A stretch of DNA of 64,000 bases. Origin: Clostridiales bacterium (GTDB lineage Bacteria > Bacillota > Clostridia > Christensenellales > Aristaeellaceae). Positions 8,630 to 32,662 of the stretch are shown here, one piece after another (position 1 is the first letter of the stretch; the number at the start of each line of letters is the position of its first letter). The notes under the pieces are model-generated. The model saw only the letters and a program-made list of their open reading frames with translations. It did no database searches and was not told where the DNA came from. The stretch spans positions 1 to 64,000 of the forward strand of contig SVGU01000003.1 in NCBI GenBank assembly GCA_015056155.1, read 5' to 3'. The translations under genes and the position numbers were made by a program.

Positions 8630-8657
8630 GAAAAACACCTCCGGAGTTTTTCAAATT
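8625..8657 (-). repeat. 33-nt RBS-bearing module, copy 1 (upstream of hisA)
   Basis: Sense strand AATTTGAAAAACTCCGGAGGTGTTTTTCATGAT, identical to 10725-10757. Confidence 0.9.
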
Positions 8658-8686
8658 CGGAATTCGGAATGCGGAATTCGGAATTG
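8654..8686 (+). repeat. Solo heptamer-repeat arm between hisB and hisA
   Basis: AATTCGG AATTCGG AATGCGG AATTCGG AATTG; same heptamer order as 23934-23966. Confidence 0.9.
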
Positions 8687-10729: not shown

Positions 10730-10757
10730 GAAAAACACCTCCGGAGTTTTTCAAATT
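10725..10757 (-). repeat. 33-nt RBS-bearing module, copy 2 (upstream of hisD)
   Basis: Identical 33 nt to 8625-8657. Confidence 0.9.
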
Positions 10758-10781
10758 AAGAATTAAGAATTAAGAATTGAG
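10754..10781 (+). repeat. Heptamer repeat (AATTAAG)x3 + AATTGAG; contains the hisG stop codon
   Basis: 7-bp tandem repeat; hisG TAA lies at 10770-10772. Confidence 0.85.
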
Positions 10782-23070: not shown

Positions 23071-23175
23071 AATTCGGAATTCGGAATGCGGAATTCCGAA
23101 TTTGAAGTGTATGCCATGTGCCGATCACCGAAGTTCGTGTCCAGTAACTGAATTCCGAATTCACAATTCCGAATT
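23071..23175 (+). mobile_element. Gene-less heptamer-armed element (MITE-like) between pyrD and pyrF
   Basis: Left arm AATTCGGAATTCGGAATGCGGAATT; inverted right arm AATTCCGAATTCACAATTCCGAATT (22/25 pairing); ~45-nt core. Confidence 0.65.
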
Positions 23176-23232
23176 CACACACGCCCTGCGTGTAGGAATA
23201 TACATCAGTAATAATTTAGGAGGAGAACAACA

Positions 23233-23931
23233 ATGGCTAAGGACGTCATCATTGCCCTCGACTTTGAGAATAAGGAAAAGACCCTCGCGTTCCTCGATCA
23301 GTTCACCGGCCGCAAGCCCTACGTGAAGATCGGCATGGAGCTGTACTACGCCGAAGGCCCCGCCATCGTCAAGGAGATCAAGGCCCGCGGCCACAAGATC
23401 TTCCTGGACCTGAAGCTGCATGACATCCCCAACACCGTCAAGAAGGCCATGGCCGTGCTGCGCCACCTGGATGTGGACATGACCAACCTGCATGCTTCCG
23501 GCACCATCGCCATGATGGAGGCCGCCAAGGAAGGCCTGACCAAGGAAGACGGCACTTGCGGCGTGCTGCTGGCGGTCACTCAGCTGACCTCCACCTCCGA
23601 GGAGCGCATGCAGAACGAGCTGCTGATCAACGCCTCCATGCCCGACACCGTGAAGAAGTACGCCCAGAACGCCAAGGCCGCCGGTCTGCCCGGCGTGGTG
23701 TGCTCTCCGCTGGAGGCTGCGCTGGTCAAGGAAGCTTGCGGCGCGGACTTCCTGACCGTGACCCCCGGCATCCGCTTCGCTGACGGCGACGTGGGCGATC
23801 AGGTGCGCATCATGACCCCCGAAAAGGCGAAGGCTGCCAGCGACTACATCGTCGTCGGCCGTCCGATCACCGCGGCGGCGGACCCGGTGGCGGCTTATAA
23901 CCGCTGCGTGAAGGAATTCCTGGGGGAGTAA
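23233..23931 (+). CDS. pyrF: Orotidine 5'-phosphate decarboxylase
   Basis: [44 protein letters not shown]. Confidence 0.95.
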
Positions 23932-23933
23932 GT

Positions 23934-24399
23934 AATTCGGAATTCGGAATGCGGAATTCGGAATTTGGTTTGTGAGACTGAATTCTGAATGAAGCGTAGG
24001 AGTTTTGAATGAAGGATAATAATGTTGTAGTGATGAAGAGCAAAGCGTTTGCATTGCGGATCATCAAGCTGTACCAGATGCTCAATCAGCAGCATGAACA
24101 CATTATGTCCAAGCAGATGCTGCGAAGCGGAACGTCGATAGGGGCAAATGTGAAAGAGGCAATTCGCGGACAATCCCGCGCGGATTTCTTCTCAAAACTG
24201 AACATTGCTCTGAAGGAAGCAAGTGAAACGGAATACTGGTTGGAGCTCCTGTACGAGAGCGGCTACATCAATAATGAAGCAGCATATCAAAGCATTTATA
24301 GTGACTGCCAGGAGCTCATCTCGATTCTTGTTGCAATTACTAAGGCGCAAAATCAGTCCACACTATAAATTCCGAATTCCGAATTCATAATTCCGAATT
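23934..24399 (+). mobile_element. Heptamer-armed element carrying a four-helix-bundle gene
   Basis: 33-nt terminal inverted repeats (23934-23966 vs 24367-24399, 30/33) around one ORF, inserted between pyrF and pyrE. Confidence 0.7.
24009..24368 (+). CDS. Four helix bundle protein (S23/23S rRNA intervening-sequence-protein family)
   Basis: LRSGTSIGANVKEAIRGQSRADFFSKLNIALKEASETEYWLELL signature. Confidence 0.93.
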   Translation: MKDNNVVVMKSKAFALRIIKLYQMLNQQHEHIMSKQMLRSGTSIGANVKEAIRGQSRADFFSKLNIALKEASETEYWLELLYESGYINNEAAYQSIYSDCQELISILVAITKAQNQSTL

Positions 24400-24424: not shown

Positions 24425-25081
24425 ATGGAAGCTTACAAGGTAGAGTTCATCAAATTCCTCGAGGACGCGGGCGTGCTGAAGTTCGGCGATTTCACCGCCA
24501 AGTCCGGCCGCAAGATCCCTTACTTCATCAACGCCGGCGACATCAAGACCGGTGACCAGATCGCCAAGCTGGGCGAGTTCTACGCCAAGGCCTACCTGGA
24601 GAAGGTCGGCAACAAGCGCACCGTCCTGTACGGCCCCGCCTACAAGGGCATCTCCATCGCGGTGTCCTCCGCGGTCGCGCTGTCCAAGCAGGGCCTGGAC
24701 GTTCCCTTCTTCTTCAACCGCAAGGAAGTGAAGGATCACGGCGAAGGCGGCGTGTTCGTGGGCTATGTCCCGAAGGCCGGCGAGGAAGTCGTCATCGTTG
24801 AGGACGTCATCACCGCCGGTACCGCCATCCGCGAGAGCATGGCCATCCTGGGCCACCTCGAGGGCGTGAAGGTCGCCGCGACCTTCATCATGGTCGACCG
24901 CAAGGAAAAGGGCAAGACCGAGAAGTCTGCCATGGCCGAGGTGCAGGAGGAGTTCGGCTTCCCGGTGTACTCCGTCGTGGACGTGTACGACATCATCGAG
25001 TACCTCGAGGCGGACGAGAAGAACGCCGAGAACGTGCAGCGCATCAGGAACTACCTGGCCGTGAACGGCGCGCAGGCGTAA
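24425..25081 (+). CDS. pyrE: Orotate phosphoribosyltransferase
   Basis: YGPAYKGISIAVSSAVALS; VVIVEDVITAGTAIRE. Confidence 0.95.
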   Translation: MEAYKVEFIKFLEDAGVLKFGDFTAKSGRKIPYFINAGDIKTGDQIAKLGEFYAKAYLEKVGNKRTVLYGPAYKGISIAVSSAVALSKQGLDVPFFFNRKEVKDHGEGGVFVGYVPKAGEEVVIVEDVITAGTAIRESMAILGHLEGVKVAATFIMVDRKEKGKTEKSAMAEVQEEFGFPVYSVVDVYDIIEYLEADEKNAENVQRIRNYLAVNGAQA

Positions 25082-32571: not shown

Positions 32572-32662
32572 GAATTTTGAATGCGGAATGGTGAATGGCG
32601 CCTGTGATGCTGATGCACATACGCCGCAGAAATTCCGAATTCCGCATTCCGAATTCCCAATG
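32572..32662 (-). mobile_element. Heptamer-armed gene-less element downstream of the XRE/S24 regulator
   Basis: Minus strand arm GGGAATTCGGAATGCGGAATTCGGAATTT, core hairpin, then diverged ATTC-N3 heptamers. Confidence 0.55.

Follow-up and report, generated by a model that had tools for sequence, protein, structure and literature searches.

An IVP gene between inverted heptad-repeat arms in a clostridial pyr operon: a probable intervening-sequence-type hairpin element with relatives in other bacteria

A gene of the four-helix-bundle 23S rRNA IVP family lies between pyrF and pyrE of a Clostridiales bacterium, enclosed by two inverted arms made of 7-nt repeats. The same architecture is found around most IVP-family genes in many bacteria, some of which lie within 23S rRNA or RNase P RNA. 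These units therefore seem to belong to a single widespread family of hairpin elements, of which the ribosomal intervening sequence (IVS) is the best known. The pyrF-pyrE unit is thus probably an IVS-type hairpin element that is transcribed with the host operon and has the IVP as its dedicated protein partner. Sequence evidence establishes how the unit is built, that it recurs across phyla and also sits in 23S rRNA and RNase P RNA, that its presence between pyrF and pyrE is patchy, that ORF-less relatives exist and that the protein is under purifying selection.

Parts of the pyrF-pyrE element

The window, i.e. the whole stretch of 64,000 nt that was analysed, carries pyrD, pyrF and pyrE on its plus strand, as identified from the ORF list and from Pfam and NCBIfam profile matches. 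The element and the two genes beside it are composed as follows:

23233..23931, plus strand: pyrF, upstream host gene, co-directional (ORF list, profile matches)
23934..23966, plus strand: left arm, heptads AATTCGG AATTCGG AATGCGG AATTCGG AATTT (inverted-repeat search, sequence)
23998..24002, plus strand: AGGAG, likely ribosome-binding site, 6 nt 5' of the IVP start codon (from reading the sequence)
24009..24368, plus strand: IVP ORF, 119 aa, PF05635/TIGR02436 four-helix-bundle protein (profile matches)
24367..24399, plus strand: right arm, inverted heptads (inverted-repeat search)
24425..25081, plus strand: pyrE, downstream host gene, co-directional (ORF list, profile matches)

The whole element measures 466 nt. 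Its left arm starts 2 nt past the pyrF stop, while the IVP stop codon (TAA, 24366-24368) extends into its right arm. Each arm is a run of the heptad AATTCGG and its variants, and the inverted-repeat search found the two 33-nt arms to be 400 nt apart and complementary at 30 of 33 positions (91%). The arms and the 119-aa ORF reported between pyrF and pyrE by the initial annotation are confirmed by this search and by the ORF list. The assignment of the ORF to the four-helix-bundle 23S rRNA IVP family likewise stands, as it matches PF05635 (E = 1.5e-27) and TIGR02436 (23S_rRNA_IVP, E = 6.5e-32), both above the curated cut-offs. Solved structures exist for relatives of this protein (2rld, 2gsc). 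In the predicted fold of the transcript, both arms pair as a long stem (z = -5.5). When up to two mismatches were allowed, GGAATTCGGAATTC had 27 matches in the window versus 0.28 expected from shuffles; together with the control-ORF comparison given below, this rules out that the arms are chance or low-complexity sequence.

Heptad arms around IVP genes elsewhere

The evidence for other phyla rests on 80 GTDB loci, which were the best matches to the query alignment and hence not an unbiased sample; 74 of them were testable, and 72 ORFs from the same contigs served as controls. An inverted-arm score of at least 14, the cut-off used, was reached by 68/74 IVP loci from many phyla versus 4/72 control ORFs. 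Period-7 arrays occurred on both flanks of 40 of the 74 IVP loci versus one of the 72 controls, and no both-flank arrays were found at these 74 loci for any other period from 4 to 12. The initial annotation had made its case depend on the arms being linked to this family elsewhere, which holds for most of the loci: in a pooled set of 140 IVP loci (among them order-level relatives, loci on viral contigs and a phylum-wide draw), 111 are armed (70/76, 7/19, 12/14 and 22/31 in the subsets). The remaining 29 had no arm pair above the threshold, several of them being tRNA-adjacent with another repeat layout. In the 111 armed loci, the self-identity of the left arm is 0.775 at period 7, compared with 0.20-0.30 at periods 3-6 and 8-12.

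While the period is constant, the heptad itself varies by locus (AATTCGG, AATGCAC, AATTCAT, CATTGAA, AGTTAGG, GGTAGGA, AGTCAGG and others). Arm similarity follows IVP protein similarity (Mantel r = 0.39, 0 of 2000 permutations), host kinship not being removed from this correlation. The left arm starts at a median of 2 nt from the stop of the co-directional gene upstream, and a median of 15.5 nt separates the end of the right arm from the next start. Of 102 upstream neighbours, 89 are co-directional, an orientation that genes often share anyway.

Among the order-level relatives (L051, L058, L059, L060, L065, L067, L069), several IVP genes are situated just 3' of a tRNA gene. At several tRNA-adjacent loci, words of the GTGAAAT/GTGATGT type are interspersed with small hairpins 5' of the ORF, and, as read from the sequence, these words and hairpins form an apparent second arm architecture. 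IVP genes with heptad arms are also carried by viral contigs (L182-L193), which represent a possible route between hosts.

Heptad-armed IVP elements were found within 23S rRNA (L211, L219, L224-L226, L229, L232, L234), where two further copies are degraded (L227, L228), and in class A RNase P RNA, where they occupy the P12 hairpin (L222, L230). In the 23S rRNA and RNase P RNA cases read, the IVP ORF is sense to the host RNA. A relative, G029, possesses an ORF-less heptad hairpin at the same P12 position (L240/L258, G029:C24); its rnpB span of 484 nt is the longest, the full-length matches of other relatives being roughly 310-435 nt. One more IVP element is located directly upstream of a tmRNA gene (L236). 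A comparison of the sequence layouts indicates that elements in rRNA, in RNase P RNA and between genes have the protein family, the arm periodicity and the arm symmetry in common. The earlier proposal of an IVS-like unit residing in a protein operon is thereby supported, by the same family with period-7 arms inside 23S rRNA elsewhere and by the predicted stem, whereas its description as an undescribed element was too narrow, as this unit is a single member of a very large family.

ORF-less copies, dispersed arrays and patchy presence

A pattern search of the window located further heptad sites, all of which were absent from the initial annotation:

23071..23176, unstranded: ORF-less short element at the pyrD-pyrF junction, arms 23071-23102 and 23150-23176, loop of ~45 nt (pattern search, sequence)
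32573..32657, unstranded: ORF-less short pair, left array 32573-32597 degenerate, right array 32630-32657 (pattern search)
8654..8685, unstranded: solo AATTCGG array in an intergenic gap (pattern search)
10754..10778, unstranded: solo array of another heptad, AATTAAG (pattern search)

The ORF-less element between pyrD and pyrF was not seen at the same junction in the congeners read. Searching the host genome and its relatives with the arm and the ORF, a check proposed by the initial annotation, yielded AATTCGG-type arrays at about 26 sites of the host genome (pattern matches grouped by hand) and a second host-genome IVP gene on contig C85, which has the heptad TGAATAA and both arrays upstream of the ORF. 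Some of the host-genome arrays are inverted pairs around loops of ~40-85 nt, and others are solo. With regard to the conserved interior of a MITE, the ORF-less loops compared within the window genome (G000) show no relationship apart from a single weak pair, whereas those of G029 are partly similar to each other. None of the nine short-element loci compared with Rfam (0/9) matched any family. Several of the solo AATTCGG arrays in G000 (L041, L027, L032, L036, L037) have an adjacent flank resembling TGAGAGTG, which suggests a separate subfamily.

A generic AAT-heptad pattern matched in 40/40 IVP-bearing genomes, usually tens to hundreds of times, where the counts are overlapping pattern matches and not elements. 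These counts are mostly well above the reversed-pattern control, which equals the signal in a few AT-rich genomes. Of 60 relatives, 9/17 IVP-positive versus 5/43 IVP-negative genomes had at least 10 array matches (p = 0.0015). The five array-rich IVP-negative exceptions are all congeners of the window genome with a completeness of 68-88%; outside the genus, at least 10 matches were found in 4/12 IVP-positive versus 0/30 IVP-negative genomes. The congeners G002, G009 and G010 contain many arrays with no IVP found in their incomplete assemblies. Across congeners, the copy number ranges from 0 to about 200 pattern matches.

The IVP element between pyrF and pyrE is present in G000, G007 and G011 and absent in all other congeners with a readable junction, so that genomes with the element-free junction sought by the initial annotation do exist. 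The pyrF genes of G001, G002, G016 and G017, all without the element, are 92-93% identical to that of the window, while those of the element-bearing G007 and G011 are 89-90% identical. As closer relatives lack the element and more distant ones carry it, gain, loss or transfer must have occurred. The arm heptads also differ, being AATTCGG in G000 versus AATTAGG/AATTATG in G007, and the arms pair within each genome; the congener junctions are too diverged to give exact element ends. Other repeat families, for example TTTCGCCTCTGCGGAGGCGACCAAAGGGC and CTCCCTCTCGAGGGAGG hairpins, occupy pyrD-pyrF and pyrF-pyrE junctions of congeners (L075-L089), and these gaps therefore seem to tolerate insertions.

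Between G000 and G011, the IVP has a dN of 0.050 and a dS of 1.22; with a dN/dS of 0.04, it is under strong purifying selection. For the same pair, the dS of the IVP exceeds that of the adjacent pyrE (0.55), which could reflect weaker codon constraint or separate histories.

Proposed mechanism, alternatives and known systems

In the proposed mechanism, the two inverted 7-base-repeat arms, with the IVP gene in the loop, would be read from the pyr operon transcript. In this transcript, the arms would form a long stem that, by analogy with known IVSs, could be cleaved by RNase III, and such a cleavage would do no damage in the gap separating two reading frames or within an rRNA loop that is dispensable. 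The IVP may form a pentameric four-helix bundle like the Avd protein of diversity-generating retroelements (DGRs). The homology to Avd (PMC10053308) and the tracking between arm and protein suggest that the IVP acts on elements carrying its own heptad. It would then be retained because it promotes the maintenance or spread of the element, including, in trans, that of ORF-less copies. A broader reading, which we put forward only tentatively, is that IVPs and heptad hairpins constitute one pan-bacterial class of mobile or selfish RNA hairpins in which IVP-bearing forms are autonomous and ORF-less forms non-autonomous. Such hairpins would colonise tolerant structural-RNA loops and intercistronic mRNA gaps, with the IVP as the specificity factor for its own heptad.

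The arms could instead function as DNA. Of the arm mismatches, 88 were G·U versus 98 A·C (p = 0.51), which gives no sign of RNA-specific pairing selection and is compatible with a DNA-level reading. RAYTs are REP-associated tyrosine transposases. In a comparable system, the IVP would bind the heptad arrays as DNA and aid their transposition or exchange, the RNA stem being incidental. Besides the missing G·U bias, the dispersal of inverted pairs, solo arrays and tandem copies and the spread from 0 to about 200 pattern matches between congeners are in line with this model. REPINs with their RAYT (PMC3116915) are likewise short inverted pairs scattered through intergenic DNA, and the same repeats flank a related gene. 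However, the IVP is a four-helix bundle that matches only IVP-family profiles and resembles neither RAYT nor any transposase in Pfam and NCBIfam, and its arms consist of tandem 7-nt repeats that differ in sequence between genomes. In addition, the sense orientation, the place just past the upstream stop and the fact that copies inserted into 23S rRNA or RNase P RNA are also in sense point to transcription mattering. Combined, we consider a DNA-level system unlikely.

Still less probable is a role useful to the host, in which heptad stems in intergenic mRNA would set stability or make operon genes differ in expression, with the IVP as a modulator in trans. The tight fit between the stop codon and the next start, the strong purifying selection on the IVP and the many ORF-less stems would suit such regulation, but the uneven occupation of the site across congeners, the insertions in 23S rRNA and RNase P RNA and the copies in viral contigs argue against it. 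It is very hard to credit that the arms are ordinary slippage-prone intergenic repeats linked to the IVP by chance or ascertainment, because, even though in many bacterial genomes no class of short repeats is more abundant than the heptanucleotide one (PMC4679880), the arms are inverted partners that track the IVP protein sequence, separate IVP loci from same-contig control ORFs (68/74 versus 4/72) and also flank the IVP elements of 23S rRNA and RNase P RNA.

The preferred reading, an IVS-type hairpin element, is best seen against the 23S rRNA IVSs of Coxiella and Leptospira, which share the protein family and the inverted complementary ends around the ORF. The Coxiella IVS is 428-444 nt long, compared with 466 nt for the pyrF-pyrE element, is reported to be cut by RNase III and bears tandem GACAGAT heptamers beside its S23p ORF (PMC4990558). 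In contrast to these IVSs, the pyrF-pyrE element is located in a protein operon and not in a 23S rRNA helix (9, 25 or 45), and its heptad also occurs in dispersed ORF-less copies in the host genome. A homologous fold links the IVP to the DGR protein Avd, which PF05635 resembles (PMC10053308); unlike in a DGR, no reverse transcriptase was present among the scanned neighbours (pyrD, pyrF, pyrE and an ABC transporter gene).

STRR heptanucleotide repeats also occur in rnpB. Cyanobacterial and Beggiatoaceae heptanucleotide repeats, such as those in P6b of the trnL intron or TAACTGA, resemble the present arms in forming period-7 arrays that lie in intergenic DNA and extend RNA hairpins, and the text searched states no link to IVPs (PMC4679880); two P6b repeat motifs have been reported (PMC4476775).

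The IVP protein family and the rRNA IVSs are already known. We did not find the heptad-arm rule for non-rRNA IVP genes, the RNase P insertions or the ORF-less partners in the open-licence literature, where they are apparently undescribed; no statement of a link between heptads and IVPs was found there. More than 25 years past their discovery, 23S rRNA IVSs were still called unclear in function and origin (PMC4990558). If inverted heptad arrays enclose IVP genes in general, the rRNA copies would be just one of the habitats of a larger family, RNase P RNA and intercistronic mRNA being others. The IVP would then gain a concrete candidate ligand, namely its own heptad, and at least part of the heptanucleotide arrays in many bacterial genomes would have a possible explanation.
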